Assembly (NCBI RefSeq): GCF_000173075.1
Contig: NZ_ABVL01000002.1
Coordinates: 62,001-126,000, forward strand
Length of the DNA stretch: 64,000 nt
Direction of reading: 5' to 3'
From: Chthoniobacter flavus Ellin428
GTDB lineage: Bacteria; Verrucomicrobiota; Verrucomicrobiia; Chthoniobacterales; Chthoniobacteraceae
Under the pieces are notes generated by a model that did no database searches, was not told the DNA's origin, and was given only the letters and a program-made list of their open reading frames with translations. This document shows, in pieces, positions 6,563 to 57,300 of the stretch. The position numbers and the translations under genes are program-made. Every line of letters begins with the position of its first letter. Within the stretch, counting starts at the first letter, position 1.

Positions 6563-6565
6563 GGG

Positions 6566-6626: not shown

Positions 6627-6633
6627 GATGGTT

Positions 6634-7425: not shown

Positions 7426-7519
7426 GTCGGCGGCGACCGTAATGGAAGACCGCACGCATTTCCACTCCCGACGTAAGGAGAAAACTTGCGGATTTCTAAG
7501 GTGTTCTTAACTTTTAGTC

Positions 7520-8080: not shown

Positions 8081-8085
8081 AAATC

Positions 8086-37849: not shown

Positions 37850-37996
37850 GGCGTGATTGTTTCGCCCGGTTTCAAGAGCGAATCATTACAGATAAGGAAA
37901 TAATCAGGTCTTGAAAAGGACTTTGCGCAAACCGTCAGCGACGGTGTGGCACACGACGCCCTCCAGGCGTCAGACAAAAAACACCGAGACAACGAC

Positions 37997-39386
37997 ATGA
38001 CTACAGCCACCCTGAAGAACCTCGAAACCCTGCACCAATGTCTCAGCGGCGACGTCCTCCTTCCCGGAGACCTCGCTTACGACGAGGCTCGCGCCGTTTG
38101 GAACCGCATGGTCGACCGCCGACCCGCCGCCATCGTCCGTTGCCGGACTGAGGCCGACGTCGTGCAGGCGGTGAATTATGCCCGCGAAAATCGGCTCAAG
38201 GTTTCGATCCGGGGCGGAGGACACAACATCGCCGGTTTCGCGGTCTGCGAAGACGGGCTGATGATCGACCTTTCGCCGATGAAGAGTGTGCGGGTCGATG
38301 CCGGCGGACGCCGCGCGTCGGTGCAACCAGGCTGCACGCTGGCCGACGTGGATCGCGCCACGCAAGTGCACGGCCTCGCCACGCCCACGGGGATCAATTC
38401 CACGACGGGCATTGCCGGCCTCGCCTTGGGCGGCGGTCTCGGCTGGCTCAGCCGCAAATACGGCCTCACCTCGGACAATCTCATCTCGGCGCGGATTGTC
38501 ACGGCGGACGGTCGCACGCTGCACGCCGGAGCCGGTTCCCACTCGGACTTGTTCTGGGCCTTGCGCGGCGGCGGTGGAAATTTCGGTGTCGTCACTGAGT
38601 TCGAATTTGCCCTGCATCCGGTCGGGCCCGAGGTGCTCGCCGGATTGATCGTCTACTCCCGCGCCGAAGCCGGCGCCGTGCTGCGGAAGTATCGTGAATT
38701 CATTGCCACCGCTCCCGAAGACCTGAGCGCGTGGGTCGTGCTGCGCAAAGCGCCGCCGCTGCCCTTTCTCCCGCCTGGGGGCGCACGGCCGCGATATCCT
38801 GGCCATTGCCCTCTGCTACCTCGGGCGAGAGGGAAAGCGGCCGCAGGATCATTGCCCCGCTCTCGAATCTCGGCACCGTTCTGGGCGAACACGTCGGGCA
38901 TGGTGCCCTTCACCCGCGTGGCAGCAGGCCTTCGATCCGCAACTCACTGCCGGCGCACGCAATTACTGGAAGTCGCACAACTTCACCGAGCTGAAGGATG
39001 GCTTCTTCGACCAGATCGTCGACCTGGCGGGAGAATTGCCCTCGCCGGAATGCGAGATCTTCATCGCCCAACTCGGTGGCCAGGCCGGGCGCGTGCCGGT
39101 GAATGCGACCGCCTACGGAAATCGCGACGCTCATTTCATGATGAACGTGCACGGTCGCTGGACCTCGCGCAGTGATGATCTTTCGTGCATCGCCTGGACG
39201 CGGGAAGTGTTTATGGCCACGCTGCCGTACTCCAACGGGGGCGCCTACGCCAACTTCCTCACCGCCGAGGAGACGGATCGCGTGAAGTGGGCCTTCGGTG
39301 CGAACTACACGCGCCTGGCGAAGATCAAGCGGACCTACGACCCGGAGAATTTCTTCCGACAAAACCAAAACATCCGACCCGAGTGA
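37997..39386 (+). pseudogene. FAD-binding (BBE-type) oxidoreductase, four +1 frameshifts
   Basis: The N-terminal part (from ATG 37997) is a typical FAD-linked oxidase: SIRGGGHNIAGFAVCEDGLMIDLS carries the His that attaches FAD, followed by GLALGGGLGWLSRKYGLTSDNL and ALRGGGGNFGVV. After LPFLPP the homology jumps frame four times: at G5 38777-38781 (to AHGRDILAIALCYLG), at about 38826 (to ERESGRRIIAPLSNLG), at about 38899 (to MVPFTR) and at about 38918 (to WQQAFDPQLTAGARNYWKS). The BBE C-terminus YDPENFFRQNQNIRP ends at 39386. Each jump is explained by one inserted base. As written it cannot make a full-length enzyme. Confidence 0.85.
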
Positions 39387-39754: not shown

Positions 39755-40102
39755 TTATCCTACTTGTGCTTGGGCGTGATGTTCGTGGTAGCGCTCGACG
39801 TTCTTTCGCGCTTTCTCCGCCCAGACTTCATGGGTCGGCTTGACTAAAAATGTGCCCGTCAAACCTTGAGTGCCGATCTCGATACCGCGCTGGCGGCTAA
39901 TCTGGTGCCCGTAGTAGAGAGCAAGGATGAATGAAAGGATTGCGATTGCCACCACTGTCCAGGAAGCAATGTCATCCCTGATGCGGACATAGGGGTCGGC
40001 CACGGCCCAAAGGAGGAAAAACATCGGAAGGAGCAACATGGAAATCCATTGGCGGATGCTCAAGCGACGTAAATCGCGAAAATGCTGTTTTTCTACATAC
40101 AT
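39755..40102 (-). CDS. Small two-helix membrane protein
   Basis: The 115-residue protein (ATG at 40102) has a basic N-terminus, two hydrophobic helices (about residues 20-36 and 49-63) and a His-rich C-terminal stretch (ERYHEHHAQAQ). It lies 85 bp downstream of the giant permease gene on the same strand and might be its last operon member. No family recognised. Frames extending further upstream overlap the permease's end and are unlikely. Confidence 0.6.
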   Translation of the reverse strand: MYVEKQHFRDLRRLSIRQWISMLLLPMFFLLWAVADPYVRIRDDIASWTVVAIAILSFILALYYGHQISRQRGIEIGTQGLTGTFLVKPTHEVWAEKARKNVERYHEHHAQAQVG

Positions 40103-40187: not shown

Positions 40188-42227
40188 TTAACCAATCGGA
40201 CCCGCGAAAATCTCCGTGCCGCTGGTTTTCGGTGGCGGCCAAGCCTGATGGCACGCCGGGCATTCCTCCGTTTCGATGGGGCGCTTGCGAGAACAACTGG
40301 GGCAGGGTACTCGCGTCGGCCACGGCGCGGCGAGACGGAACGCGACCAGGCCGGGCAGGCTGAAGAGGAAGACAAAGAGGGTCCAGTGGATGGCTTCCCT
40401 TTTCGCCAGGCCAGCGCGGCGGGCCCACCAAAAGGTAATGGCCGCACAGGCCGCACTCAGTGCCGTCACCAGTCCCAAGAAAGATTTCGACGATGCCGCC
40501 CGACCCAAGTCGGAGAGAATGCTCGGAATGGTGTCATATGCTTCCGGGTGCCTGCCTCCACTGGCGGTATAAAGCGCACTCACGAAAGGCGGCACCAAGC
40601 CCAGGTAGAGGCTCCCATTCGATTCTGGCGGGGAGGCTTCTTGCGTCACGGCACTGTCGCTGCGCACCACTCGTCCCTGAAGATCGATCTCGTCGACGAA
40701 GGATGGCAGGGATGGATTTCCCGGCTTCATCTCGCGTTGGAAATTGGGATCGTAGAGGATGAAGACGCGCTCGCCGCCGGGAACCGTCGCCACAAAAAGA
40801 CCGGGCCAGATGGCGGGATCATGTCCGTAGGGAGCGGTAGCCAGTGGCTTGCCGTGCAGGTCGAGAATTTGCACGGCATTTTCAAACGCGAGTAACAAAT
40901 ACACCGGGGTCTCGCCTGCACAGACCGGGGCGCTCGCGTAAATCCTGCCCAAGGGCGCCGTGTAGAGCAGCTTCATGGTGCGGTCGCCGAAATCCAGACT
41001 GTAGAGCTGATTGCCGCTCCAATAGTAGTACGGCGCGGACCGGCTGAAGATGGGATGCTCCAGGCGAATGGGAAAAGGTTTCGGCGCCGCATCCGCGGAG
41101 TGGAATCCCTCGACATCGCAGATCGCCACGCGACGGCGGGTGAGCTTGTCGTAACCGGCGAAATAGTTTTTCCGGACGAGATAATACCAATATTCCGCTC
41201 CATTGTCGTTGTTGCCCGCGGCGACTTGGAGATAACGGTCTCTTCGGAGCGGATCTTCGGCGAGAGCGGCATCAAAAGCGGCTTGCCAGTTTTTCAAATT
41301 CCAACCCACTGGAAAAAATTGCGCGAACCGATACGACGTCGCGTTTTCAATATAATTCTTGTCGGTAAACGGGCTGCCATCCGGATAAGTTAAATGAAGC
41401 CCCCCGTCATAACTAGACAGCAGCGGCTGGCCATCCTTCGTGAGCACGAAACGCCGGGGACTTCCCGATGACGGTGGGTTACTGGAATTCGGTTGCAGCG
41501 CGACCCACAGTACCAACAGCAACACCATCAGAACACCCATGAAAATCTCCGCGCCGGCAAACATGGCGAACGCCAGACTCCAGCGCGCGGCTGGGAAAGC
41601 GTGGCTGGCCGAACCATTGCCACACATGGCGCCGTAGGCGGCGGTGAGCAGGATCAGGGACATCCCGAGAGCTGGCAGGAAAATCCAGTCTGTCCCGAGC
41701 TGGAAAAAGAACAACGGCAGGACGGACAGCGCGAGCAGCGCACGTCGCCCATACCAGCGGCCGTGCGTCAAGGAAACGAGCAGGGCGCCGGCGTAAAAGA
41801 CGATACCGAAGATGACATTGCTCGCCGCCGGTACGGCCATCGCGGGAAAGAATGGGGCCGCGACCAGGCCAGGCAGTGAGACGAAAAGCACGCTGGCCAG
41901 GAATGGCAGGCCCGCGGCCAGTGCATAAAGCAGCAATCCGGCGGTGACTTTACCAAGAAAGAGGGTCGAGCGCGGCACGGGCCGGTGCAGCAACGCGGCC
42001 CAGCGATCGCGATTGAGCTCGGGAAGGATTTGGATCGCTCCCAACGCGGCACCGGCCAGGGCGCAGCCAAACAGAAAAGTGATATGGGTGTTGCGATTGA
42101 TGATCACATCCGGCTGCACATGCAGGACGTAAATTTGCGCGACAGTCAGGACGGCGGCAGCGAGTGCGGCCCACTTGAAGTTTTCGCGCAGTTCCTTCCA
42201 AAGGATCGTCTTAAAGGGTGTCGCCAT
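40188..42227 (-). CDS. Giant ABC-2-type permease with C-terminal zinc ribbon (paralogue B)
   Basis: The 679-residue protein (ATG at 42227) begins with the permease motif LLKEL-like ILWKELRENFKWA and ILPELNRDRWAALLHRP, then about six helices (residues 20-265). A roughly 320-residue soluble insert of beta-propeller-like short strands (YLLLAFENAVQILDLHGKPL) follows, then two helices, and a four-Cys ribbon CPSCSRKRPIETEECPACHQ near the end. It shares this layout and the final GTEIF with the upstream paralogue, whose stop it overlaps by 17 bp. The transported substrate is unknown. The ATPase upstream probably powers both. Confidence 0.8.
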   Translation of the reverse strand: MATPFKTILWKELRENFKWAALAAAVLTVAQIYVLHVQPDVIINRNTHITFLFGCALAGAALGAIQILPELNRDRWAALLHRPVPRSTLFLGKVTAGLLLYALAAGLPFLASVLFVSLPGLVAAPFFPAMAVPAASNVIFGIVFYAGALLVSLTHGRWYGRRALLALSVLPLFFFQLGTDWIFLPALGMSLILLTAAYGAMCGNGSASHAFPAARWSLAFAMFAGAEIFMGVLMVLLLVLWVALQPNSSNPPSSGSPRRFVLTKDGQPLLSSYDGGLHLTYPDGSPFTDKNYIENATSYRFAQFFPVGWNLKNWQAAFDAALAEDPLRRDRYLQVAAGNNDNGAEYWYYLVRKNYFAGYDKLTRRRVAICDVEGFHSADAAPKPFPIRLEHPIFSRSAPYYYWSGNQLYSLDFGDRTMKLLYTAPLGRIYASAPVCAGETPVYLLLAFENAVQILDLHGKPLATAPYGHDPAIWPGLFVATVPGGERVFILYDPNFQREMKPGNPSLPSFVDEIDLQGRVVRSDSAVTQEASPPESNGSLYLGLVPPFVSALYTASGGRHPEAYDTIPSILSDLGRAASSKSFLGLVTALSAACAAITFWWARRAGLAKREAIHWTLFVFLFSLPGLVAFRLAAPWPTRVPCPSCSRKRPIETEECPACHQAWPPPKTSGTEIFAGPIG

Positions 42228-44313
42228 ATTTACCGGGGGGGCAGGATGAAAAGGAAAGCGCTTCGTGATCGAAAATCTCCGTGCCGGTGGCGGCGGCCGG
42301 AGGCCAGTCGTCCGCGCAATGAGGGCAGGTTTGCCGGCTGACGGGGCGCGGTCGCTGACAGGTCGCGCACGGAACCACCTGGGGCCAATCGGCCACAGTG
42401 AGGAAGAGCAAGAGGCCGGCGATATTGAAGACCAGGGCCACGCCCGCCCATAGTGCCGCCTGCGACCAGGAAAAGTGCAGGCGGCGGGCACCCGCCAGGG
42501 TTGCACCGGCGCACAGCAACGAACAGACCAGGATGAGCACCGCCGTCTCCCGAACCGCATGCGCGTTGCTTCCCATCCGCGCCTCAAACACGTCTTGAAG
42601 CTTTTGATTGCCCAGCAGTACCCCAAGCTTTTGATAAAGCAGGGTGCCGAAGAAAAACACCGGGCTTCGGAGTCCCTCGATAAGGTATCCCGCGGGCGTC
42701 GGCTTCGCCGGAGTGACCGGCAACGGCGGCAGCGTGTAGGAATGCTCGACCTTCCCCTGACGACTCATGACATCGACGTAGCTGGGCATCACCGCGCTCT
42801 CCTGCCAGGGAATCCAGACGCTGGGTTCATACTGGAGATAGAAGCGATCACCGGCGACATTCACCCCGACAGAGATTTGCCCCCAGCGCTCGACATCATG
42901 GTGGTAGGGTAGCGTGGCCAGCAGGTGCCAGTCTTTTTGATCGTAGATCGCCAGAGAACCGCGCAGCGCAACCGCCGAAATCTCGATTTGCTCCAATTCG
43001 TTGGCATTCCACGCATTGGCGACGCCGTGGATCGGCGGTGACGCCGGCAACGGGATTTCGGTGACGCTCCGTCCGGCAAAGTCGGCGACGCGCAAGCTCT
43101 CTCGCTGGAATTGCAGCAGCCGGTCGTGTGCCACCGTATCGAACACGACATCAACCGGAAATGGAACCGGCCGGTTTCCGGGCGGCTGGAAACCGTGTAA
43201 GTCGAGGATCGCTGCGACGGTCTTTCGATGTAGCGAAATGCCGACGAGGATCTTCGGTTGTCGGAGCAAAAACCAGCTCTCCGGCTGCGGCAGGTGATGG
43301 GTGCCCGCGGGCACGATATAGGTATGGGAGAGCCGATAGCGCTGCTCATGCTCCACGCGCGGATGATAGTGGTGAGAATCGCCGATGTAGGCAGTAGCTT
43401 CGTTCAAATAGACGGTGTGCGAGCGAACGCGGTCCCGCTTGTATTTCGCTTCGCTGGGCGCGCTGCCGTCCAATTCCTCGACGGAAATAATGGTGCCGCT
43501 CCGATAAATGATCTTCAACGGACGGCCTTCCTCGTTGACCCGGTATTCCGGGCGATCCGAGTTGTACCACCGGTCGGGCTTCCAGACGAAGAGGGCGAAC
43601 TCGGCGAAGCCACAACACCCGTAAAAGGCGACGAGGAACAGAGCGAGCCGGCCGAACCAAGGCCGCCCGCGCAGCCGATCACGACGATAGATGGCACCCC
43701 AGCCCGCGAGAGAAAGCACCAGCGTCATCCCCAACACCGCCCACGCGGCATCGCTAAAATCGTCCGCCCTCTGGACGAAGGACGTAAGATACACCGCGGC
43801 CAGCAACGGCAACACCCGCCAGGCGATCCGGCCACCCTGCAGCGCGATGAGGAGCGCGGCAAAATAATAAGCGAGCCCGGTGGCGGTGTCCGCGATTCCG
43901 GCGAGAGCGAGACCCGGGACGAAAGGGCTGGCGAAATGGCCGGGCGTAGCCGTCTGCCAGACGCATACGAGGAGCGGAATCACCGCCGCGATGATATAAA
44001 GAAGCACGCCGGCCACCGCCTTCGCCCAGAAAAGTGCGCCCCAGGAGATCGGCCGGTGCAAAAGGGCCGCCCAGCGATCGCGATTTAACTCCGGCAGAAT
44101 CTGGAGGAAACCGAGAAGAAGACCGATGGCCGGCGGCCCGAAAGTGGTGAGAATGAGAAACGCAGCGTGGCAAAGCGTGATGCCGTTATTGAATGAGTAA
44201 TCTGCATCGGCCTCCGTGTACAGCGCGAGGAGTTCCGCCGCGCCGAGAGCGAACATGGCGAGCAGCGCCCATTTGAAATTCTCCCGTAATTCTTTCCAGA
44301 GGAGCGTGCTCAT
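42211..44313 (-). CDS. Giant ABC-2-type permease with C-terminal zinc ribbon (paralogue A)
   Basis: The 700-residue protein starts MSTLLWKELRENFKW (ATG at 44313, overlapping the ATPase stop). It has the same plan as paralogue B: N-terminal helices with LQILPELNRDRWAALLHRP, a large soluble insert (about residues 260-590) and late helices. The Cys ribbon CATCQRPRPVSRQTCPHC and GTEIF follow. The insert of such length between helices is unlike ordinary YtrC/ABC-2 permeases. Together the two probably make a heterodimeric channel. Confidence 0.82.
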   Translation of the reverse strand: MSTLLWKELRENFKWALLAMFALGAAELLALYTEADADYSFNNGITLCHAAFLILTTFGPPAIGLLLGFLQILPELNRDRWAALLHRPISWGALFWAKAVAGVLLYIIAAVIPLLVCVWQTATPGHFASPFVPGLALAGIADTATGLAYYFAALLIALQGGRIAWRVLPLLAAVYLTSFVQRADDFSDAAWAVLGMTLVLSLAGWGAIYRRDRLRGRPWFGRLALFLVAFYGCCGFAEFALFVWKPDRWYNSDRPEYRVNEEGRPLKIIYRSGTIISVEELDGSAPSEAKYKRDRVRSHTVYLNEATAYIGDSHHYHPRVEHEQRYRLSHTYIVPAGTHHLPQPESWFLLRQPKILVGISLHRKTVAAILDLHGFQPPGNRPVPFPVDVVFDTVAHDRLLQFQRESLRVADFAGRSVTEIPLPASPPIHGVANAWNANELEQIEISAVALRGSLAIYDQKDWHLLATLPYHHDVERWGQISVGVNVAGDRFYLQYEPSVWIPWQESAVMPSYVDVMSRQGKVEHSYTLPPLPVTPAKPTPAGYLIEGLRSPVFFFGTLLYQKLGVLLGNQKLQDVFEARMGSNAHAVRETAVLILVCSLLCAGATLAGARRLHFSWSQAALWAGVALVFNIAGLLLFLTVADWPQVVPCATCQRPRPVSRQTCPHCADDWPPAAATGTEIFDHEALSFSSCPPGKYGDTL

Positions 44314-45236
44314 TTGTGCTCGAGGTCGCGCATGAAGAAGGTTTTTTCGCCGCGTTCGCCAACGTAGCTGACGAAGGCGTCTTCGAGGGTCATCTGCACC
44401 GGCTCGATGTCGGCCGGCTGAAGCCGCGCGAGTTGCGCCTCGGTGTCGGAAGTGGCATTGGCGAAGGTCAGGGCGAGCTCGCGGTCGGTGCGGAAGCTTT
44501 CGAGCAGGCCGGGAATGGCTGGAGCGGGTGGGGGAGTATCGTCGAATTTCAGGACATAGTGTCGCAGGCTTTCGCGGAAGCGTTCGACGGTGCAATCGGC
44601 GCGCAAAGCGCCCCCATCGAGGACGGCAATGCGGTCCGCCACGCGTTCGACATCGGAGAGCAGATGCGACGAGAAAAGGATGGTGCGATTTGGCTGGCGC
44701 GTGACGTAGAGCATTGATTGCAGCAGGCTGCGCCGGGCCACGGGATCGAGACCGAGCGCGGGATCATCGAGAACGAGCAGCTCGGGCTCGGGCGCGAGGG
44801 TCATTGCGAGGCAGAGCCCGGCGCGCTGTCCACGCGAGAGATGACCGGCTTTCATTTTCGGCTCGAGGCGGAAGTGGGTGATGACGGCTTCGAAAATGTC
44901 CTGGTTCCACTTCGGAAAGAAGCTCGCCTGGAAGCGGCCGCATTCTTTGACTGTCATCCATCCATAGACATGGTGGCCTTCGGGCAGATAGCCAATCCGG
45001 GCGCGCGTCTCGGGCGAAAGTGACTGGGAATCCTGGCCGAAGACCCGGGTGCCGCCGCGGGTGGGATCCTCGAACCCAAGGAGGATGCGAATCGTCGTCG
45101 TCTTGCCCATGCCGTTGCGACCGAGAAAGCCATAGATGGTGCCGGCGGGCACTTTCAAGCTCAGGTCGCGAACGATTTCGCGGGTGCCGTAATACTTCGT
45201 GAGACGGTCGATTTCGATAACCGGTGACGTGTTCAT
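44310..45236 (-). CDS. ABC transporter ATP-binding protein (YtrB-like)
   Basis: The 308-residue ATPase has Walker A GFLGRNGMGKTTTIR, a Q-loop region, the variant signature LSRGQRAGLCLAMTL (LSRGQ instead of LSGGQ), Walker B LLVLDDPALGLD, and the H-loop FSSHLL. Asp-Asp in LDDPALG replaces the usual Asp-Glu, so the catalytic glutamate is changed. This variant is common in YtrB-type ATPases, which may be slow. The C-terminal domain ends MRDLEHK, overlapping the permease start (ATGA). Upstream it overlaps the GntR gene. Confidence 0.9.
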   Translation of the reverse strand: MNTSPVIEIDRLTKYYGTREIVRDLSLKVPAGTIYGFLGRNGMGKTTTIRILLGFEDPTRGGTRVFGQDSQSLSPETRARIGYLPEGHHVYGWMTVKECGRFQASFFPKWNQDIFEAVITHFRLEPKMKAGHLSRGQRAGLCLAMTLAPEPELLVLDDPALGLDPVARRSLLQSMLYVTRQPNRTILFSSHLLSDVERVADRIAVLDGGALRADCTVERFRESLRHYVLKFDDTPPPAPAIPGLLESFRTDRELALTFANATSDTEAQLARLQPADIEPVQMTLEDAFVSYVGERGEKTFFMRDLEHK

Positions 45237-45660
45237 GAGTGGGCTCCTTTGGCGTCGGGGGATTTCGCGGCGACGGCCTTCCTCAGGCCGGACCAGGTTT
45301 CGTCGAGGGTGGCGTGGATTTGGGAGAGATCGAAATCGAGGAGGATGGCCTCGTGGCAGAGCTGCTCGGTGGCCAGGCGCAGACGGCGTTCGCGTTCTGC
45401 GTCGGCGAAAACCTGACGTTTTTGCGACACGAAGACTCCGCGGCCCGAGCGGCTTTCGAGGACGCCATCGCGGATCATGTCCTGATACGCGCGGGCGACG
45501 GTATTGGGGTTGATGACCAGCGTTTCGGCAAGAACCCGGATGGCCGGAAGCTGGTCGCCTACCTGTAGCCGACCGAGGGCCACCGCCTGCTGCACCTGCT
45601 GAACGATTTGCCGAAAATGGGGATATCGCTGGCTGGAGCGATGGAAATTCCGAGCGACAT
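45233..45660 (-). CDS. GntR/YtrA-family regulator with a frameshift near its N-terminus
   Basis: The frame from 45595 gives the YtrA-type winged helix (AIRVLAETLVINPNTVARAYQDMIRDGVLESRSGRG) and a short C-terminal domain. Codons from the ATG at 45660 (MSLGISIAPASDIPIF) continue the family's N-terminus in another frame. One missing base around 45612 would join them into about 142 residues. If the frameshift is real, translation from the GTG at 45595 lacks the first helix. It lies directly before the ABC operon, with its own likely operator at 45663-45684. Confidence 0.82.
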
Positions 45661-45662
45661 GA

Positions 45663-45684
45663 GTGTATTAATTAACTAATACAC
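45663..45684. promoter_or_regulatory. Perfect palindrome overlapping the leader of the YtrA-type operon
   Basis: GTGTATTA (45663-45670) and TAATACAC (45677-45684) flank a 6-bp AT-rich spacer, 2 bp from the regulator's ATG. YtrA-type GntR proteins bind such palindromes and repress their own operons, so this is the likely operator. The leader would be very short. Confidence 0.7.
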
Positions 45685-45798: not shown

Positions 45799-46356
45799 AT
45801 GTTTGGCAATAAACAGAAAAAGAAAGCCGCTTGGGTCCAGAGTGCCCTCGAACGTTACGAACGCCCGCTCTTGCAGTATGCGATGAGCATCGTGGGCGAG
45901 ATCGAACGGGCGCGGGATGTGGTGCAGGAGACCTTCATGCGCCTGCACAACCAGGAGCAGGAGAATATCGAGGGGCATCTTTCGCAGTGGCTCTTCACGG
46001 TGTGCCGCAATTGCGCGCTGAAGTCGCTGAAGAAAGAGGATCGTTACATTTACGTCGAAGCGCAGGAGTTTGAGACCAAGCGCTGCGAAGGCCTGACGCC
46101 GCTGATGGAGCTCGAGCGCAAGGAACGCGTGGAGCGCCTCATGGAGCTGGTGAAAGAGCTGCCGAAGAACCAATACGAAGTCGTCCGTCTGCGGTTCCAC
46201 CATCACCATTCCTACCAGGAGATCAGCGAGATCACCGGGTTGAGCGTGGGCAATGTGGGCTTCCTGCTGAACGCGGCCATGCGCAATCTGCGCGGGAAGA
46301 TGGATCGCGACGACAAGGACGAGAAGATTATTTACCTGAAGAAAGGGGTGGCTTGA
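45799..46356 (+). CDS. ECF-type RNA polymerase sigma factor
   Basis: The 185-residue protein has sigma-2 (about residues 20-85; YAMSIVGEIERARDVVQETFMRLH) and sigma-4 (about 118-170; LPKNQYEVVRLRFHHHHSYQEI then SEITGLSVGNVGFLLNAAMRNL). It directs transcription of a regulon that the sequence does not reveal. A likely promoter lies in the AT-rich gap 45685-45798. It overlaps the next gene by 4 bp, the usual sigma/anti-sigma arrangement. Confidence 0.92.
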   Translation: MFGNKQKKKAAWVQSALERYERPLLQYAMSIVGEIERARDVVQETFMRLHNQEQENIEGHLSQWLFTVCRNCALKSLKKEDRYIYVEAQEFETKRCEGLTPLMELERKERVERLMELVKELPKNQYEVVRLRFHHHHSYQEISEITGLSVGNVGFLLNAAMRNLRGKMDRDDKDEKIIYLKKGVA

Positions 46357-46913
46357 TCGTGAGAGGAAAACTGTCAGACCAAGACCTGACGGATTACGCG
46401 CTGAATGAGCTCGGTCCTGAGGAGCGCTTGTATGTCGAATCGATGCTCGCCGTTTCGGAAGAGTGCCGGGAAGACGTTTACAAGACGATCGACCTTGGGC
46501 TGATGATCGAGGAAGCGTTTGAACGCAGAGAGGGCGACGTTCCGCTTTCCCTCACCGATGAGCAGCACGTCAAGTTGCTCGATGTCCACGTGCCGAATCG
46601 TTTTCTGCACCGCTCCGTGCGTGTGCTCGCGGCCGCCGCCGCGGTGGCGCTGGCTTTCGTGAGCAAGGATGTGTGGCTGCCGAAGGCGGCGGTGGATCAT
46701 GTGACGCGCGTTTCCAGCCAGGTGAACACTTCGGTCATGCAAGCCACGGCCGAGGGCGAAGATTTTGTCAGTCAGTTGGCGAACTTCCGTAAGCTCACTG
46801 AGGATCCCGGCAAGTGGCTGCCCTCGCAGCCGCCCGCTGGCGCCGCGGTGTTTGGTCCGCCGGCTTCCTTCAACGTGGAAGCGCCTCACGCGGGTTTGGA
46901 ATTCACGCCATAA
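46353..46913 (+). CDS. Anti-sigma-like single-pass membrane protein
   Basis: The 186-residue protein has an N-terminal ASD-like helical part (LSDQDLTDYALNELGPEERLYVESMLAVSEECREDV), one weakly hydrophobic segment (about residues 88-106) and a C-terminal extracytoplasmic tail. The N-terminus resembles that of verrucomicrobial anti-sigma proteins, which often carry a von Willebrand domain that is absent here. The TTG at 46353 overlaps the sigma stop; a GTG at 46359 is an alternative start with better Shine-Dalgarno spacing. It is followed by a terminator. Confidence 0.72.
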   Translation: MIVRGKLSDQDLTDYALNELGPEERLYVESMLAVSEECREDVYKTIDLGLMIEEAFERREGDVPLSLTDEQHVKLLDVHVPNRFLHRSVRVLAAAAAVALAFVSKDVWLPKAAVDHVTRVSSQVNTSVMQATAEGEDFVSQLANFRKLTEDPGKWLPSQPPAGAAVFGPPASFNVEAPHAGLEFTP

Positions 46914-46945
46914 TTTGCCCGCGAGTGCATTTCCGCACGCCCTTC

Positions 46946-46983
46946 ACGCCGTTCGTCGCATTTCTTGCCGAACGGCGTTTTAG
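46946..46983 (+). terminator. Intrinsic terminator of the sigma/anti-sigma operon
   Basis: ACGCCGTTCG (46946-46955) and CGAACGGCGT (46969-46978) form a perfect 10-bp stem with a 13-nt loop, followed by TTTAGTTT. It lies 33 bp after the anti-sigma stop. Confidence 0.85.
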
Positions 46984-47010
46984 TTTCTAGAAACACTCTC
47001 TCTTCTTCCC

Positions 47011-48072
47011 ATGTCCACCCGAACGCCCTCCAGTGCCGAAAGGCCCGCACCCGCGGCTAGTGCTCCCATCGATGACAAAGCCGCTGCGACCATGCTCGTG
47101 GACGCATACAAAAAGATCGTCGACGAAATGGGGAAATTCATCGTCGGCCAGCAGGACGTCATCGAGCAACTCGTCATCGCGGTGCTCGCAGGCGGTCACT
47201 GCCTGCTCGAAGGCGTCCCCGGGCTGGCCAAGACGGCGATGATCCGCTCGCTGTCGCGGACGATGGATCTTTCCTTCCGCCGCATTCAGTTTACGCCCGA
47301 TCTCATGCCGGCGGACATCACCGGCACGGACATCATCCAGGAAGATCCGGCCACCGGCCGCCGACAGTTTATTTTCCAACGCGGGCCCATCTTCACCCAG
47401 ATGCTGCTCGCGGACGAAATCAACCGCACGCCACCGAAGACGCAAGCCGCGCTGCTCGAAGCGATGCAAGAGCACTCGGTGACGGTCGGCGGTCACACGC
47501 TGAAACTCGAGGAACCTTTCTTCGTGCTCGCGACGCAAAACCCGATCGAGCAGGAAGGGACCTATCCGTTGCCCGAGGCGCAGAAGGACCGCTTCATCTT
47601 CCTCGTGAAGGTTGACTATCCGGAGCGGGAGCATGAGCGGCAGATTATCGCACGGACTACGGGCACTTTCGAGGCGGACCTCCAGCCGGTCATTCACGGC
47701 CAGCAGATCCAGGAATTGCAGCGCGTGGTGCGCAAGGTGCCGGTGCCCGATCACGTCATGGATTTCGTGCTCGATCTCGTGCGTTTCACGCGGCCGAACA
47801 ATCCCGATGCCCCGGCGTGGGTGAAGGATCTCGTCGATTGGGGGGCCGGCCCGCGGGCCTGCCAGAACATCGTCCTCGCGGCGAAAGTGCGCGCGGTGTT
47901 GCGCGGACGCTTCCACGTCACCGATGATGATATCGAGGCGCTCGCGCTGCCGGTGTTGCGACATCGCGTCGTGCCGACTTTCAACGCCGAAGCCGAGGGC
48001 ATCAAGGTGGACGACATCATCTCGCGCATCGTCAAGGCGGTGCCGCGCGGCGAATCGAAACGCGTGCTCTAA
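47011..48072 (+). CDS. moxR: MoxR-family AAA+ ATPase
   Basis: The 353-residue ATPase has Walker [12 protein letters not shown], Walker [31 protein letters not shown], sensor-1 [23 protein letters not shown] and a lid domain. MoxR ATPases act as chaperones that load or mature DUF58/von Willebrand-domain proteins, often in envelope stress or aerotolerance. It is the first gene of a 13.7-kb operon encoding just such proteins. A word-type hairpin at 48108-48185 lies between it and the next gene. Confidence 0.94.
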
Positions 48073-48107
48073 ACCGTATCCTCGGAACCAATGACCGCCG
48101 ATTAGCT

Positions 48108-48185
48108 CTTAATCTTAATCCTAATCTTAATCGTAATCTGCTCCGGACGTCCGGGAGTAAGATTAAGATTAGGATTAAGATTAAG
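48108..48185. repeat. TTAATC-word inverted repeat with perfect 25-bp arms
   Basis: Left arm 48108-48132 and right arm 48161-48185 are exact reverse complements, made of CTTAAT/CCTAAT words. The loop has its own palindrome CCGGACGTCCGG (48143-48154). It lies between moxR and the DUF58 gene (codirectional), so it may attenuate operon expression or set stoichiometry. Confidence 0.8.
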
Positions 48186-48210
48186 AAGCAGAGCCCGATG
48201 AGCCCCCCGC

Positions 48211-49107
48211 ATGGCGCACGTCTCGGATTTTCTTACACCGGCTGATCTGCAAAAGATCAGCAACCTGCAGGTCGTCGCCCGGCAGGTCGTCGAAGGCTTT
48301 TGCTCGGGCATGCACCGCTCGCCGCACAAGGGCTTCAGTGTCGAGTTCAAGCAGCACCGGCAATATGTGCCCGGCGACGAAATCCGGCACATCGACTGGC
48401 GCGTCTTCGGTCGGTCAGATCGCTTTTACATTCGCGAATACGAGGAGGAGACGAACCTCCGCGCGACGATCCTGCTCGATATGAGCGGCTCGATGAATTA
48501 TGGGCGCAACGGGCTTACCAAATACCATTACGCCACGCGACTGGCGGCTTCGCTGGCTTACCTGATGATCGGCCAGCAGGACAGCGTGGGCATGGTCACG
48601 TTCGACACGAAGATCCGGAAATACATTCCGCCGCGGTCGCGCGTCTCGCACCTACGGGTGCTCATCGACGAGTTGCAGCGCAGCGAACCGGGCGGCGAAA
48701 CGGAACTCGGCGACGTCTTCCACGATCTCGTGCCGAAGCTGCACCGCCGCGGCTTGCTCGTGATCCTGTCCGATTGCTTCGGCGATGTGCCGTCGCTGCT
48801 CAAGGCGCTTGCCCACTTCCGCCACGCGCATCACGAGATCCTCATTTTCCAAATCTGGGATCGTGACGAACTTGAATTCCCGTTCAAGCAATGGACGCAA
48901 TTCGAATCGCTCGAAACCGCGGGCGTGAAGCACTTGCTCGACCCAGTGCTGTTGCGCGAGGCGTACCTCGAGAACCTGGAAAAATTCCGCGCCGAACTGC
49001 TCCGCGGCTGCCGGCGACATAAGATCGATCTGGTGCCATTTGTCACGGACCAACCCTACGCGGAGGCTCTCGCGGCGTATATCAGCCGCCGGAGGACGCG
49101 GGGATGA
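48211..49107 (+). CDS. DUF58 domain protein (vWA-like, MoxR partner)
   Basis: The 298-residue protein has the DUF58 core [20 protein letters not shown], then [24 protein letters not shown]. It has a MIDAS-like motif [11 protein letters not shown], then [20 protein letters not shown] and a vWA-like [10 protein letters not shown]. It is soluble and probably engages MoxR directly. Its stop overlaps the next gene by 4 bp (ATGA). Confidence 0.92.
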
Positions 49108-51337
49108 GTCTGCCATTCGGCTTCATCAACGGCGCCTTGCTCGCCGGCGCCTTCGCGCTGGCGATTCCGATCATCATTCATCTCTTTCACAAGAGCCGTT
49201 TCCAGATCGTCAAATGGGGCGCGATGCATTTGCTGGAAGCGGTCATCCGCACCAATCAGCGGCGCATCAAGATCGAGCAGATCATCCTCCTGATCATCCG
49301 CGCGGCGATTCCGCTGATCCTCGCGCTCTGCATGGCGCGGCCGGTGTGGAAAGGGGTCCGCAAGTTGATGGGCGAAACGCGCACCTCGACGATCATCCTG
49401 CTCGATAACAGCTACTCCATGGCCGCCAGTCGCGCGGGAACTTCGAACATCTCGCTGGCCAAGGACGAGGCCGAGCGGATTCTGAACGAGGTGCCGCGCG
49501 GTTCGGATGCGCAGGTTGTCTTGATGGGCGAGGGCGGCGCGCCGTTGCTCGATGAACCAACCTATGACCTGGCCCGGCTTACCCAATCACTGAAGCCCCT
49601 CGAAGCCACCTACGGCACGGCGACCGTGCCGGCGGGTCTGGACTTCGCGGCGAATGTCTTCGGGCAGATGCACGAGTCGACGCGCAATCTGATCGTCATG
49701 ACGGATTTTCAGCGGGTCAGCTTCGAGGCGACCGAAGACGCCGAAGTCGGACAAATGCTCGACCGTCTGCACAAGCTGACCATCCCGCCGGAAGTCACCT
49801 TTTTCGACGTGGGCACCGAGGTGAAAGACAACGTGGCCATCGAGTCGCTCGATTACTCGCGGCTCATGGTTGGCATCGGACAAAAAATCCAGATCCGCGC
49901 GAACCTGCGGAACTTCGGCGACGCACCGTATCAGGACCTGCGCGTGTATTTCAAAGCGGACGGAAAGGAGCGCTCGATGGCCCAGATCCGCCTCGGCCCG
50001 CACGAAAAAGGGCAGGTGCTTTTCACTCACGCCTTCGATACCGCCGGCTCGCACGTGGTCGAAATCGTCGCGGATGCCGATCCGCTCAAAGCGGACAACA
50101 GCTATCTGGCAAGTATTCCGGTGCGCGACAAAATCCCCGTGCTGCTGGTGAATGGCGACCCGAGCGCGGAACCGCTCAAAGGCGAGACCGATTTCGCCGA
50201 GATCGCGCTGCAGCCCTACAGCAGCACCGGCCGTGTGGCCTTGGCCGATCTCATTTCCACCAAAGTCATCCGCACAGAAAATCTCGATGCGAAGGATATC
50301 AACGCGTCCGCGGTGGTGATGCTGGCGAACGTGCGTCAGCTCGATGCGGGACAACTCAAGGCGCTGGAAGACTTCGTGCGCAATGGCGGCGGCCTGCTCA
50401 TCTTCCCGGGAAATCGCGTGGATGCTTCGTGGGCGAATGCCTCACTGTTCAAGGATGGCAAGGGCCTGCTACCGCTGGGCTATGGCGCGCTGGCCGGCGA
50501 TCTGAAAGAAGGTGCGCCTTCAGTGGGTATCGTCTCGCAGCGCTTCGACCATCCCGCGCTCGATCTCTTCAACGACCCGCGCAACGGGACCGTCTCGGAC
50601 GCGGCGATCAAGATGTGGTACCGCATGAAGGAACCGGCGAGCGCGAGTGCGAATGCACCGACGATCATCGCCCGATTGACCAGCGGTGATCCCTTCCTCG
50701 TGGAGAAGCAATTCGGCGAAGGCCGCGTCATCCAATGCGCGATCCCGTGCGACGCCGATTGGAGCAACCTACCGATGCGCCCGTTTTATCTGCCGATGAT
50801 GCAGCGCCTCTCGATCTACCTGGCTTCCACGGTTTTTCCACCGCGCAATCTCGAGGTGAGCAAGCCGCTCGTCGCCTTCCTGCCAGCCGGCGATGCCGGA
50901 AAGAAGGCGTCGCTCTCCCTGCCCGACGGCACGGCGCGCGAAGTACCGGTGGTCAAGAAAGGCGAGCGCGGTGTGATCGAGTACCCGAAGACGCAACAGC
51001 CCGGTCTCTACACGCTCACTTCGCCGAGCGGCACAGCCACCCATTTCGTGGTGACACCTCGCGACGCGAATCGGATTTGCAAAAGCTGAGCGACGCCGAG
51101 ATCGCGGATTTCGCGAAATCGCACGGCGTGTCGGTGGTCCACTCCGGCGCGGAATACAAGCAAATGGATCACTCCCGGCGTTTCGGCAGTGAGTTCTGGC
51201 GTTCGCTGCTCTGGTTGTTGCTGGCGCTGATTTTCGCCGAGCTTTTCCTCCAGCAGCGCTTCTCGCGGGTGCGCCGCGTGACGACCAATGAGGGCCTGCC
51301 AAAAGGTGTGCCGAGCAGGCAGGGAGTGCGCACATGA
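49104..51337 (+). CDS. BatA-like N-terminal-domain / vWA membrane protein, frameshifted near its end
   Basis: The first frame encodes about 661 residues. It has a BatA-type N-terminus with two membrane helices (residues 10-22 and 60-75; [20 protein letters not shown]), a vWA domain with MIDAS-like LLDNSYSM at about 98, and a long periplasmic part with [10 protein letters not shown] and a glutamine-amidotransferase-like fold. After VVTPRDA the frame ends at 51089. The expected continuation ([15 protein letters not shown]...) runs in another frame to a final transmembrane helix ([18 protein letters not shown]), stopping at 51337. One missing base near 51068 explains it. The joined stop overlaps the next start (ATGA). 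Confidence 0.8.
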
Positions 51338-54099
51338 GCCCGGAACACGTGCAGACATCGCTGCGTTTCGTCGGCGACTGGCCCTGGTATGTGGCCTTCG
51401 GTATCGCAATCCTGCTCGGCGCCGCGGCCTGGTTTCTCTACCGGCGCGAGATGCATGGGCGTTCGTGGTGGGTGCAATGGCTCCTGCCGCTGCTGCGCTC
51501 GCTGACCGTGCTGATGATCGTCGTCATGCTTTGCGGTCCAGTCCTGCATCACCGCAAAATCATCGGCCAGCTTTCCCGGTTGCTCCTCTTTGTCGATGGT
51601 TCGAAAAGCATGAGCCTCACCGATACCTCGATGAGCACCGGGCGGAAAATCCTTATCCTGCAGCGGCTCGGCCTGTGGCGTTCCGATGCGGTGAAGATGG
51701 ATCTGCCGCAGGCCGGCGAAGCGCTGGCCGAAGCCCAATCACTCGCGACGAAAGGCCACGACAGCGGCGCTACCAACGCCGATGCCTGGAAGGCGCTGAC
51801 TCACGATTTCGAAGCGAAGATCGGCGTAGCGCGCGATGCCCTCACCCGGGCCGGTTTCGATGCCGAACGACTGGACGCTTTTGTCCGCGAACTCGGCGTC
51901 GCGTCGCGGGAGTTGGCCAGCCGGGAGCTGAAGCAACTCGACGATCGCAATCGCGCCGCCCAGGACCTCGGGCACCTGGGTGAAGCGGCCGCCCGCTGGC
52001 AGCGGGAAGTGAACGCGCGCTTCGATCAGAATTTGCAGGCGATTGCGCCGGGCGAGAATTCGCCGCTGAAAACCGCGCTGTCGAAATTCGATGGCCTGCA
52101 GCGCATTCACCGGCTGCAATCGCTCCTCCTTGAAGGCGAGAAGGAAAAGCTGCTCGGCAAGTTGAGCGAGAAGTTCGATGTCCGCTTGATCGAGATCCTC
52201 AATGCCGAGGCCAGGAATCTCTGGCAGCCGACGAGCCGCGATTCGACGCTGCCCACCAGCCTGCCGCAGCCCGAGGGCGAGATCACCAATCTCGCGACCG
52301 CGCTCAAGAACTCCGCGAGCGGCGACACGAAAGAGCAACAGCGCGGCGCCGTGGTGCTCTTCAGCGACGGCCAGCATAATGAAGGCGAGTCGCCCCTGGA
52401 AGTAGCCAAGATTCTCGCTGCTCGCGGCCTGCCGATCTACACCGTGGGCTTCGGCAGCGACATCCGCCCGCGCGATCTCGCCGTGGTGAAGATCGACGCG
52501 CCCGACGCGGTGTTTTTCGAGGACCGCGTCCAGGGACAGATCACGATCAAGGACGACCTGCCCGTGGGCCTTCCTTTCACCGTCACGGTGCGGGATGGGG
52601 ACAAGATCCTATGGCAGCAGCAGCTCGTTTCCGAAGGCAGCAACCTGCGCAAAATTCCATTCTCCGCGCCGCTCAGCGAAACCGTGCAGGAGCGATTGAA
52701 GAACAAATCGCCCGACATGCAGCTCACGTCGGTGCCGCTGGAGTTGAAGGCCAGCGTCTCGAATGTCGAGGGCGACAGCGAGCCGGGCAACAATACGATG
52801 AACCTGCGCGTGCGAGCGCTCACGCAGAAGCGGCGCATCTTGATTCTCGATGGACGTCCGCGCTGGGAGACACGTTACCTGCGCAATATGTTCGACCGCG
52901 ACGAGCAGTGGCAGGTGAATAGCGTGATCGCGGGCACCACTGCCGGCGATCCTGGCTTTCCTCGCGGGGAAAAGGACGGGCAATTTCCGAATGATCCCGC
53001 GGTCCTGCAGCCCTACGACCTGATCGTTTTTGGCGAAGTGCCGCGGGCGCTTTTCAAGGACGAGGAGCTGAAATGGATTCGCGATTTCGTCGCGAATCGC
53101 GGGGGCGCGCTGGTCTTCATCGATGGACCGCGCGGGCGGCTGAAAGAATACGCGGGCACCGCACTGGCGCCGCTGTTTCCCGTGGAGTGGAAGAATGCTC
53201 CAGCGCGCGAGCCGGGCATGAAGCTTTCGCTCAGCGAGCGGGCCGCGACGATGGCGCCATTCTCGCTGGCGCCGGAGAAATCGCAGAACGCTGAAGTATG
53301 GGCAAACCTGCATCCGCCGCACTGGCTGTCGAACGCCACGGCGCTGCCCGGCGCAGAGACGCTGGTCGAGGCGAGTGTCAGCGGCAAGAAAGTGCCGGCA
53401 GTAGTGATGCGATCTTTCGGCGCGGGCAAGGTGTTGTATCAGGCCTTCGATGACTCCTGGCGCTGGCGCTATGATGTCGCCGACGAGTATCACGTCCGCT
53501 ATTGGAACCAGATTGCCAATTACATGGCAGAATTGCCGTTCGCGGTGCGCGACAAACTCATCTCGCTGGATGCCGGCGCGTTGGTCTATCGGCCCGGCGA
53601 TTCGGCCGATCTGCGGGTGCGCTTGCGGGACGGGCAGGGGCGGCCGGTGACAAATGCCGCCGTGGATGCCGTGCTCTACCGCGATGGCCGGCGTGTGGCG
53701 ACGATTCGGCTTTCGCCCGAGGACAATGCCGGCGGCCTCTTGCGCGGACGCACCGCGGCGCTGGAGCCGGGCAGTTACGAGGTGGCGGTGGAGTCTCCGG
53801 CCATCGCCGAGCGCGATTCCAAAGCGCGGACGAGCTTCAAGGTCGAGCCGTTGGAGACCGGTGAATTGACCCAGCTGAACCTCAACGAAGAGCTGCTGCG
53901 GCAGATGTCGGCGTTGACCGGTGGCGAGTATTTGCGCGAGGAAAACATCGACCGGCTCGTGGACCTGCTGGCCCCGATGAGCCAGGGGCGGGTCGTCGAG
54001 AGCGACACCGTGCTCTGGCAGAGCTACTGGTGGTTCGTGCCCATCGTCCTACTGCTCACCGTGGAATGGATCATCCGCAAACGCGTGGGGATGCTGTGA
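51334..54099 (+). CDS. Large vWA / glutamine-amidotransferase-like membrane protein
   Basis: The 921-residue protein starts with two helices (about residues 22-39 and 53-70). A vWA domain follows with MIDAS residues in LLFVDGSKSMSLTD and, after an inserted coiled region, VVLFSDGQHNEGES. A class I glutamine-amidotransferase-like domain (about 510-720; RRILILDGRPRWETRYLRN; VVMRSFGAGKVLYQAFDDSW) lacks a visible catalytic triad, so it is probably structural. A final helix near 902-917 ends the protein. It overlaps both neighbours (ATGA at each end). It fits the BatA/BatB-like partner group of MoxR. Confidence 0.87.
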   Translation: MSPEHVQTSLRFVGDWPWYVAFGIAILLGAAAWFLYRREMHGRSWWVQWLLPLLRSLTVLMIVVMLCGPVLHHRKIIGQLSRLLLFVDGSKSMSLTDTSMSTGRKILILQRLGLWRSDAVKMDLPQAGEALAEAQSLATKGHDSGATNADAWKALTHDFEAKIGVARDALTRAGFDAERLDAFVRELGVASRELASRELKQLDDRNRAAQDLGHLGEAAARWQREVNARFDQNLQAIAPGENSPLKTALSKFDGLQRIHRLQSLLLEGEKEKLLGKLSEKFDVRLIEILNAEARNLWQPTSRDSTLPTSLPQPEGEITNLATALKNSASGDTKEQQRGAVVLFSDGQHNEGESPLEVAKILAARGLPIYTVGFGSDIRPRDLAVVKIDAPDAVFFEDRVQGQITIKDDLPVGLPFTVTVRDGDKILWQQQLVSEGSNLRKIPFSAPLSETVQERLKNKSPDMQLTSVPLELKASVSNVEGDSEPGNNTMNLRVRALTQKRRILILDGRPRWETRYLRNMFDRDEQWQVNSVIAGTTAGDPGFPRGEKDGQFPNDPAVLQPYDLIVFGEVPRALFKDEELKWIRDFVANRGGALVFIDGPRGRLKEYAGTALAPLFPVEWKNAPAREPGMKLSLSERAATMAPFSLAPEKSQNAEVWANLHPPHWLSNATALPGAETLVEASVSGKKVPAVVMRSFGAGKVLYQAFDDSWRWRYDVADEYHVRYWNQIANYMAELPFAVRDKLISLDAGALVYRPGDSADLRVRLRDGQGRPVTNAAVDAVLYRDGRRVATIRLSPEDNAGGLLRGRTAALEPGSYEVAVESPAIAERDSKARTSFKVEPLETGELTQLNLNEELLRQMSALTGGEYLREENIDRLVDLLAPMSQGRVVESDTVLWQSYWWFVPIVLLLTVEWIIRKRVGML

Positions 54100-54308
54100 T
54101 GGCGCAGGCTCCTGAAATCGACAAATCCGTCGAACTGGGTAGGCTTCGGCTTCCCATGGATTTGGCCGACAAATTAACAGGGCTAATAGTGGAGAACATT
54201 CGCTCCGCGCTTGCGACGTGCCCAGCCAACTTCGGCCCGACAAAGAATTCCGTTGGAGAAGAGTTAAACCATTGGGAACATCTACCGTTCCTCTTGCGCC
54301 ATGCCTGA
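54099..54308 (+). CDS. Small protein of unknown function coupled within the MoxR operon
   Basis: The 69-residue protein (MAQAPEIDKSVELGRLRLPM...) has no hydrophobic segment or known motif. Its ATG overlaps the upstream TGA (54097-54099), and its own TGA (54306-54308) overlaps the next ATG at 54301. Two overlapping junctions support a real gene. Base composition is lower in G+C than the neighbours. Confidence 0.5.
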   Translation: MAQAPEIDKSVELGRLRLPMDLADKLTGLIVENIRSALATCPANFGPTKNSVGEELNHWEHLPFLLRHA

Positions 54309-57300
54309 ACTACTGACCCCCGCCAGTACCAAGATTGACCCGCTCATTCTGCGGAAGCTGCAGGCCTTTGCCGACCGGCGCCGCAAACTCATCGTGCGCC
54401 GCGGCATCTATGCCGCCGTCGCCACGCTGCTCGTAGCCATGATGGTGGTGGCGGCGATCGATTACATTTTCGTCCTGCCGGATGCCTTGCGCTGGACGTT
54501 CAGCGGCGCCGCGTACCTGGCCATCATCATCGTCGAATGGCGCTCCTGCTGGCGGCTGCTTTTGAAAGCACCGGGGTCGCGGCAACTGGCCCGTCTTGTC
54601 GAGCACGCGGAACCGAAACTGCGCGAAGATCTGCTCTCCGCGGTGGAGCTCGGCGACGAGGGGCCGAACCAGGTTTTTGATTCCGAACAATTCCGCGCGC
54701 TGGTCCAGAGCGATGTGGCGGCCCGCGTGGAGAAGCTGGACATGGAGGAATTGCTCCCGGCCAAACTCCTGCGGCGCTATTCGATGATCGCCGCCGGCAT
54801 CGGTGTGGCCTGTCTCGTGGCGTTTACCCTCACCGGCTTCCAGTTCGGCACGTTGATGATGCGCGCGTTGCTGCCCATGGCTAATTTCGCCCGGGTCTCG
54901 AAGGTGAAGGTCAAGATCGTCGAGCCCTTCCCGGCGGAGATGCGCGTCGCTCAGGGCGATACCTTGCCGCTGATCATCGAGCTTTCCGGCCAATCGATGA
55001 ACAAGGCGACGCTGGAGACTTTTACCCCGAGCGGCGGCCGCGAAGTCGTGCCGATGACGCCGCTGGCCCGCGATCGCTTTTCCGCCACGATCCAGGTCGG
55101 CCGCGAAAATGTCTATTACCGCGTGCGGGCCGGCGATGCGCTGACTAAAAAGTATCTGCTCGAAGCGGTGGCCCGCCCGGCCGTGGTCGATTTCCAAAAG
55201 GCCTACACCTATCCCTCATACTCGAAGCTCGAGCCGAAGACGGTGACCGAGGAGAACGGCGACCTGTCTGCATTGGAGGGCTCGCAAGTCCTGCTCCGCC
55301 TGCACACCAACCAAAAGGTGAAGGACGCGGAATTGCGGATCGAACAGGGGAAGAAGAACACCGTCGTGCCGCTGGTCACGCAGGGCGATGCGCTGGTGGC
55401 GAAATTGCCGATCGATGCCTCGGGCATTTATCGCGTGCACCTCGTGGGCGCGGACAGTGGGTTCGAAAACAAATTCAGCCCCGAATACGAATTGCGCGCC
55501 GAGCCGGATCTCGTGCCGCAGGTCACGCTGGACCTGCCGAAGCAGGACCTCATCCTGCCCTCGAACGAAATCGTGGACGTGCAGGGTTCGGCCTCGGACG
55601 ACTTCGCTCTGGCGAAGGTGTCGCAGATGGTCAAGATCAACGACGGCAACTGGAAGGAAACGGTGCTTTCCAAGGAACCGGGTGCGAAGACCCAGGTGGA
55701 GCGCCGCTGGGATTTATTCGACCAGGGCGTGAAACCCGGCGACCTGGTGACGACGAAGCTGGTCGCTGTCGACTTGAAGGGCAACCGCGCCGAATCGCGT
55801 CCGCTGCAGGTCACGATCACCGCCGCCGGTTTTGAAACCAAGCGGTTGCAGGCGCTGAACGCCTACAAGCAATTGCTCGAGGTGATCAAGGCTGCGGAAA
55901 CAGCGTCGGCCGCGCTGGTCAAGCAGACCAATGATGCCCGGCAGCAGTTCGACCGCCTGGGCGAGGGTGATCCGCAGCGCAAGCAAGTGCTCATGCCGGT
56001 CTCGGCAAGCATCACCGATCTCCTGCAAAAAAATTCGGACGTGATGAAGCAACTGGCGACGGTCTTGCGCGACGCGACGCCGGGTCATGAAAGCGGCGAC
56101 CTGGCCTTCATCGGGCGCGCTCTCTCGCGGGAGCAGACTTATGGCGTCGAAAAGGCGCGAGGCCTGGTGGAGGTGCTTTCGGCCAACCCTGCGTTGCCCA
56201 CGGCGCACGATCTTCTTGGCGAAGCGCTGAACAGTATTGGCCGAACGGAGCAGATCCTGCGTCAGGCGACGGATAGTTGCCGGACGACGCTCAACGCGGA
56301 GGAGATCGATGTGCTCAACGAAAACCTTCAGGTGGTGGACGTCGAGCAGCAGCGTCTGCTGACGCTCGCGCACCAGAGCGGCACCAGCGCCGAAAAATGG
56401 GCGCCGGTGGCCAATCGATTGCGCGTGGTGCTGGCGGAATTACGCGGACTCGAGGAACTGTCGGGCGGCGCCGCGGATCATGGCATTCGGGCGGTGGCTG
56501 ATCGGATGCGCAATATCCAGAAGCTGATCAATAAGCGGCGCACCGCGCTGGAGACGGCGCTCGGCGGCCCGCTGGGCGCGGAATTGCTGGGGCCAACGAT
56601 GGAGCTCTCGCAGGCCGTCACGGACGTGAGCCATCAGGCGCTGGACATGGCGCGCGACATGCGCGGGCAGACGATGGCGATGCTGCGCGTGATGACCCGC
56701 GAAGTGGAGGCGACGCACAGCAGCTTCGAGCAACTGCGTGCGGAGAACGAACGATTGGTGCGCAACGATAAGCTGCCGGTAGAGGTCGCCAACGTGCTGC
56801 TCGATGGACGTTGGGCGGCGCATCTCGATGCCTGGAAGCTGCGTGGCGACATCGAGGAATGGCGGCCGGATGCGGACAGCTATTTTGTCAATGACATGCG
56901 GCTCACGACGCGGGTGCTCCAGGCGTTGCGCGATCGCGTGGCCGGGGAACGTTCGGAAAAGTGGGCGAAGGATTTGCACGATATCGAACTGAATTTCCGC
57001 GTGTTGGAATGCGGGCACTTGCTCACCGAACTCGTCGGGCAAGTGGAGCATCTGTCGACCGAGGAGCGCTGGGAGATTTACAATGCGAAGTCGCGGACAA
57101 CGAGCCCGCATGATTGGGCGTGGCTCAGCGAGCGTCTGCGGACGACGCCGGAGGAAGTTGGCCGGGCGCTGGATTTTCCCGAACGCCGCCCCCTCGGGCA
57201 GGCGGTGCAGAAGATCCTGTGGGATGCCCAGAACCAGGAGTTCACGCATCAGCTCCAGCGGGAGATGGACGATCGCTTCAACATCAGCCGCATGCCGGTG

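Follow-up and report, generated by a model that had tools for sequence, protein, structure and literature searches.

A locus in Chthoniobacter flavus Ellin428 raises the question of what kind of system combines a YtrA-type GntR regulator and an ATP-binding cassette (ABC) ATPase with two permeases of about 700 residues, each of which carries a large soluble insert and a four-cysteine ribbon within one chain. The window analyzed is a 64,000-nucleotide stretch of contig NZ_ABVL01000002.1 (positions 62,001 to 126,000 of the forward strand), and the operon lies on its minus strand in the order GntR regulator, ATPase, permease 1, permease 2. Neighboring genes overlap by a few bases; 17 bp are shared between permease 2 and the 3' end of permease 1. 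A preliminary description, made from the sequence, had reported two paralogous giant permeases with beta-rich inserts, four-Cys ribbons and a shared GTEIF end, an ATPase whose catalytic Glu is replaced by Asp, and a YtrA-like regulator beside an ABC-2 system; all of these features were present where it had placed them. What is established at the sequence level is that the genes are compactly arranged, that they encode a YtrA-type GntR regulator, a single ATPase and a pair of paralogous membrane subunits, and that a palindrome lies over the regulator start. The best explanation, which we hold with moderate confidence, is that these genes encode an autoregulated ABC-2 (type V-like) system of the envelope that works as an exporter or mechanotransmitter and has an extracytoplasmic domain built into its permeases.

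The unusual features of this operon are not due to chance: with the window counted, they are found again in 21 permeases and in 22 distinct ATPases. A profile built from an alignment of seven members found 20 further loci among the genome contigs searched; a single-protein query (P0002) found no match in the same contigs. The loci are labeled mostly as Verrucomicrobiota and Planctomycetota, plus Armatimonadetes and, once, Blastochloris, although taxon labels from metagenomes may be wrong. When permease 2 was the query, three genomes of the same order yielded relatives, and a query with both permeases found one further relative in the same class. The distribution is sporadic: a two-sequence profile detected the family in 2 of 388 sampled genomes of the window's phylum, its own genome counted, and 8 of 294 genomes in the phylum of Rhodopirellula had matches, a few of them partial. 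The GntR–ATPase–permease order was kept at every locus whose flank could be read, and permeases from different phyla, although only 19 to 37% identical overall, all retain the insert (about 340 residues in the window permeases), the four cysteines and the GTEIF end. The two permeases of the window are themselves only 31% identical along their length and share all three features.

In the C-terminal tail, the four cysteines of the CxxC-x10-CxxC ribbon are present in 21 of 21 aligned permeases; of the GTEIF residues, G, E and I are each conserved in 20 of the 21. The tail profile resembles zinc ribbons, with weak matches to DZR and Zn_ribbon in four to six of the 21 members, and the model of permease 2 contains a short ribbon (strands 639-641 and 648-650). 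The ribbon and GTEIF, which the preliminary description had proposed seeking in other Verrucomicrobiota, proved to recur across that phylum and beyond it. We rejected the idea of a module reused elsewhere, as full-length matches in 16 genomes were to these permeases and their fragments; the exception was one partial match in a 78-amino-acid frame of genome G489, and the remaining matches were generic partial ribbons. At locus L014 (G171; 5001-9149), tandem permeases both lack the four ribbon cysteines and yet end in AIFEP and REIFA, which suggests that the GTEIF end serves a function separate from that of the metal site.

The remainder of the permease was examined by structure prediction. An AlphaFold2 model of permease 2, built with 21 sequences, had a predicted local distance difference test score (pLDDT) of 81 and a predicted template modeling score (pTM) of 0.81; its helix list contains nine helices of membrane-spanning length, one of them broken in two. 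The core of this model resembles NosY (7o12_E), with a Foldseek template modeling score (TM-score) of 0.52 of the target and 22% identity. The Pfam family ABC2_membrane_4 (PF12730) matches 16 of 21 members at E<=0.1, with the scores of the window permeases under the curated gathering cut-off, and covers the first 150 or so residues but not the last three transmembrane helices (TM7-TM9), the insert or the tail. The models support a probable ABC-2 membrane core, with NosY of NosDFY as its nearest structural match. The insert of permease 1, when folded alone (pLDDT 77, pTM 0.72), gave 137 PDB matches at E<=1e-3 by Foldseek, and among the matches listed nearly all were beta-propellers (WIPI2, Lp49, WD40 and others); in its strand list, four blades of four strands each are clear and a fifth is partial. 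The insert of permease 2 also matched beta-propellers in the PDB, at E values of 2e-3 and worse. Two separate models point to a beta-propeller-like insert.

The side of the membrane on which these domains lie can be predicted from the charges of the loops. Across the 21 members, lysine and arginine (K/R) per 10 residues amount to 2.1 in the N-terminus, 0.7 in the TM1-TM2 loop, 1.7 in TM2-TM3, 0.5 in TM3-TM4, 2.1 in TM4-TM5, 0.3 in TM5-TM6, 2.0 in TM6-TM7, 1.1 in the insert and 3.0 in TM8-TM9, the most basic loop. The charge therefore alternates between loops with about 1.7-3.0, assigned to the inside, and loops with 0.3-0.7, assigned to the outside. Under the positive-inside rule these values place the N-terminus and the TM8-TM9 loop inside and the insert and ribbon outside. 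An extracytoplasmic position is very likely for the insert and, with somewhat less assurance, probable for the ribbon. The preliminary description had considered the ribbon to be cytosolic, and this part of it is not supported by the predicted topology.

The ATPase has an intact Walker A motif and H-loop, an LSRGQ signature and the Walker B sequence LDDPALGLDP, in which Asp158 (codon 44763-44765) stands where the catalytic Glu is expected. This Asp is present in 22 of 22 distinct readable ATPases of the family; Glu occupies the position in all 26 other readable Walker B motifs among the ABC ATPases examined from the same genome. One of these Glu-type ATPases comes from an operon of the ordinary YtrA type that also encodes a 285-amino-acid membrane protein (L075:1488-3666; G000:C28); this operon, which has a palindrome with 13-bp arms, serves as an internal control. 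In ABC proteins, Asp at the catalytic Glu position usually slows hydrolysis. The closest solved relatives of the window ATPase are ABCA-type ATPases and NosF. Two of the ATPase frames are interrupted: in the closest relative (L016:4964-5902) an in-frame stop takes the place of the Q in LSRGQ (LSRG*RAG), and the frame at L024 is also broken by an in-frame stop (6072-6074).

Assignment of the regulator to the YtrA subfamily of GntR regulators is supported by an N-terminal GntR winged helix-turn-helix (PF00392, E=7.7e-21 in the L011 homologue) and by a short C-terminal part, as in that subfamily (about 120-135 amino acids in total); the regulators of L011 and L014 have 129-133 amino acids, and the open frame in the window has 120. 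The preliminary description had given the operon an extent of 40188-45684, and its gene content holds, but 45684 is the edge of a palindrome and the probable ATG of the regulator is at 45660. The first 15-16 codons from this ATG, which encode MSLGISIAPASDIPIF, sit in another frame than the continuation, RQIVQQVQQAVALG..., and the single open frame from a start codon spans only 45595-45233. Since homologues read in one frame through the PIF/RQIVQQ junction, there is an apparent one-base frameshift near 45605-45617, just past the PIF codons, which may be a sequencing error. The palindrome, GTGTATTA-N6-TAATACAC, is not expected by chance in the window (0 expected from shuffles), and its core, GTAYTA-N6/7-TARTAC, occurs once in the 7.85-Mb genome; a chance origin was rejected on these grounds. 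Among 19 loci with DNA at the regulator 5' end, the strict core was found there in 11, once per locus, and a relaxed form in 3 more. The palindromes over the regulator start, putative operators, measure 18-27 bp, and bacterial YtrA operators are long palindromes, typically of 24 bp (PMC6746942). The control YtrA-type operon of the same genome has a different palindrome. This pattern fits a local, autoregulating repressor of the YtrA type.

Table 1. Positions of the operon features within the window
Feature	Position	Strand	Basis or remark
YtrA-type GntR regulator	45233..45660	-	PF00392 E=1.4e-11
Palindromic operator-like site	45663..45684	.	2 bp upstream of probable GntR start
ABC ATPase, 308 aa	44310..45236	-	PF00005 E=1.1e-23
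Permease 1, 700 aa	42211..44313	-	ABC2_membrane_4 E=7.5e-5, residues 9-156, under Pfam cut-off
Permease 1 soluble beta-rich insert, residues 245-587	42553..43581	-	AlphaFold2 and Foldseek
Permease 1 four-Cys ribbon CATC-x10-CPHC, residues 649-666	42316..42369	-	Invariant Cys
Permease 1 GTEIF, residues 677-681	42271..42285	-	
Permease 2, 679 aa	40188..42227	-	ABC2_membrane_4 E=8.5e-6
Permease 2 soluble beta-rich insert, residues 243-578	40494..41501	-	Strands 259-526 in model
Permease 2 four-Cys ribbon CPSC-x10-CPAC, residues 642-659	40251..40304	-	Invariant Cys
Permease 2 GTEIF, residues 670-674	40206..40220	-	

The number of permeases varies between genomes, which have one, two or both fused. 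In a tree of the family, permease 1 groups with L016:5899-8004 (clade support 100/100) and permease 2 with L016:8010-10118 (100/99); each permease of the window thus pairs with one of L016, indicating that the duplication is older than the split between these two loci. The permeases of L025, L033 and L014 form pairs of their own, although long branches weaken this result for L033 and L014; the family as a whole has several duplications. At L033:1510-5946 two permeases are fused in one 1478-amino-acid open frame with a ribbon in each half. The existence of one- and two-permease genomes and of this fusion suggests that the permeases probably act as a dimer, either hetero- or homodimeric.

Under our favored explanation, each membrane subunit would consist of a six-helix ABC-2 core, a seventh helix bearing the propeller-like domain outside the membrane, a further pair of helices and, at the C-terminus, a zinc-ribbon-like module that ends in GTEIF and is predicted to be outside as well. 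Two permeases would sit on an ATPase homodimer, and the regulator would repress the operon until an envelope cue relieves the repression. Turnover of the Asp-substituted ATPase, which would probably be slow, may move the core helices, and this movement may either drive a substrate, hydrophobic or linked to a lipid, outward past the propeller or pass force to a propeller-bound partner, roughly in the way that NosDFY works on its periplasmic partner. The ribbon would most likely stabilize the C-terminus or hold a metal or a partner.

Several observations weigh against this explanation. The structural match to NosY has an E value of 0.02, and the matches of the inserts have TM-scores of 0.1-0.3; because of these scores the insert is called propeller-like rather than a propeller, and a closed ring and its blade number are tentative. 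The side of the ribbon is a prediction from the charge rule, the segment that directly follows TM9 is itself rather rich in basic residues (2.45 K/R per 10), and the similar zinc ribbons in the PDB (L40e, PriA and anti-TRAP among the resemblances) come mostly from cytosolic or nuclear proteins. Some members, mostly from Planctomycetota, have an extra hydrophobic segment before TM8, which could add a helix and so place the ribbon inside in those proteins.

One rival explanation is a sensor or signaling device rather than a pump, in which a ligand in the envelope would bind to the propeller and the Asp-type ATPase, turning over slowly, would relay this inward with little transport. The invariance of the Asp in all distinct readable members, the large predicted extracytoplasmic domain and the adjacent regulator gene are consistent with such a device. 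However, YtrA-type regulators have been regarded as having no ligand pocket (PMC6746942), the operon has neither a linked kinase nor a linked receiver, and the Walker A motif, signature and H-loop of the ATPase are intact; we consider a sensor unlikely. It is also possible, though equally unlikely, that the insert, the ribbon or both are cytosolic and that the ribbon acts as a metal sensor or as a binding site for a cytosolic partner, in line with the proposal of the preliminary description. The likeness of the tails to cytosolic zinc ribbons, the basic stretch after TM9 and the additional hydrophobic segment would all agree with this location, whereas the basic TM6-TM7 and TM8-TM9 loops place both domains outside, and L031 and L032, which have the extra segment, keep strongly basic TM8-TM9 loops. 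The notion of an ordinary small YtrA-type exporter operon whose permeases merely gained an unimportant insertion, as the ABC-2-like core, the ordinary short GntR protein and the plain YtrA-type operon in the same genome might suggest, is highly improbable given that insert, cysteines and GTEIF persist between phyla, since an unimportant tail would not be expected to keep invariant cysteines.

The explanation as an envelope ABC-2 system can be taken further, but only tentatively. It may be that these proteins constitute an undescribed ABC-2 family of Planctomycetota and Verrucomicrobiota, combining core, extracytoplasmic propeller and extracytoplasmic zinc ribbon in one chain with an invariant-Asp ATPase, and that they act as mechanotransmitters on envelope partners rather than as simple pumps. 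If so, they would join NosDFY and MacB as ABC machines that act on extracytoplasmic partners, in phyla whose envelopes are poorly understood. What the analysis defines is a widely conserved but so far unnamed transporter family of unusual and testable build, in which an ABC-2 core bears both a propeller-like domain and a metal-ribbon module and the ATPase always has Asp for Glu, and the natural one-gene, two-gene and fused versions make the dimer question directly testable.

The surroundings of the operon (sigma factor and MoxR/DUF58/VWA genes upstream, an oxidoreductase downstream) offer no clue to a substrate. Permease 2 adjoins an unrelated gene for a flavin adenine dinucleotide (FAD)-binding oxidoreductase (37946-39386), which appears to be split over two frames: 37946-39175 is the FAD-binding half and 39036-39386 resembles the C-terminal half. 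Because of this split, local base-calling errors are possible. A 115-amino-acid protein with two hydrophobic stretches, encoded downstream of permease 2 at 39755-40102 (minus strand), was rejected as a component as it is missing from all other loci examined. Beyond the regulator and divergent from the operon lies an aerotolerance-like cluster (45799-54099, plus strand) with a Sigma-70-type factor and a protein without a Pfam match that may be its partner (46353-46913), followed by a MoxR-like ATPase, DUF58 and BatA/VWA proteins. Further on, a 1773-amino-acid open frame without a Pfam match at E<=0.001 (54301-59622, plus strand) is followed at 59622-60719 by a weakly prenyltransferase/squalene-cyclase-like toroid protein.

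How, then, does this system compare with those already described? The preliminary description had known of no named family with this plan, and indeed no model in Pfam or NCBIfam covers the whole permease, no solved protein matches it significantly by sequence, and searches of the available literature for the architecture found nothing relevant. It had also left to structure prediction whether the insert and ribbon are ordinary domains of a described exporter family; the parts do resemble known types, a beta-propeller-like domain and a zinc ribbon, but no described exporter family was found to have them. Permeases of the BceB/MacB type have a large extracytoplasmic domain between membrane helices and a link to envelope stress. 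The permeases studied here are predicted to share such a domain, and no FtsX or MacB family was among the Pfam matches of the members. The permeases of the Ytr and Pmt systems are small. The operons for these systems, Bacillus subtilis YtrGABCDEF and Staphylococcus aureus PmtR-PmtABCD, contain a YtrA-subfamily repressor, after which come an ATPase of the ABC-2 type and a pair of membrane proteins (PMC8060467, PMC12772383), as in the window operon, and the NCBIfam PmtA and PmtR models match the window proteins below cut-off. However, Ytr and Pmt have two ATPase genes against one here and neither propeller nor ribbon, and YtrF, with its MacB-like domain, is a separate protein. NosDFY resembles the window operon in having an ABC-2 core, NosY, to which the predicted core here is similar in fold, an ATPase, NosF, to which the window ATPase is related, and an extracytoplasmic protein part coupled to the core, as predicted here. 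However, the chain of NosY in the PDB, of about 250 residues, has neither an insert of this kind nor a ribbon, NosD is encoded separately, and no nos genes were seen adjoining the window operon. We file the system as one of the ABC-2 kind, distinct from both NosDFY and Ytr.

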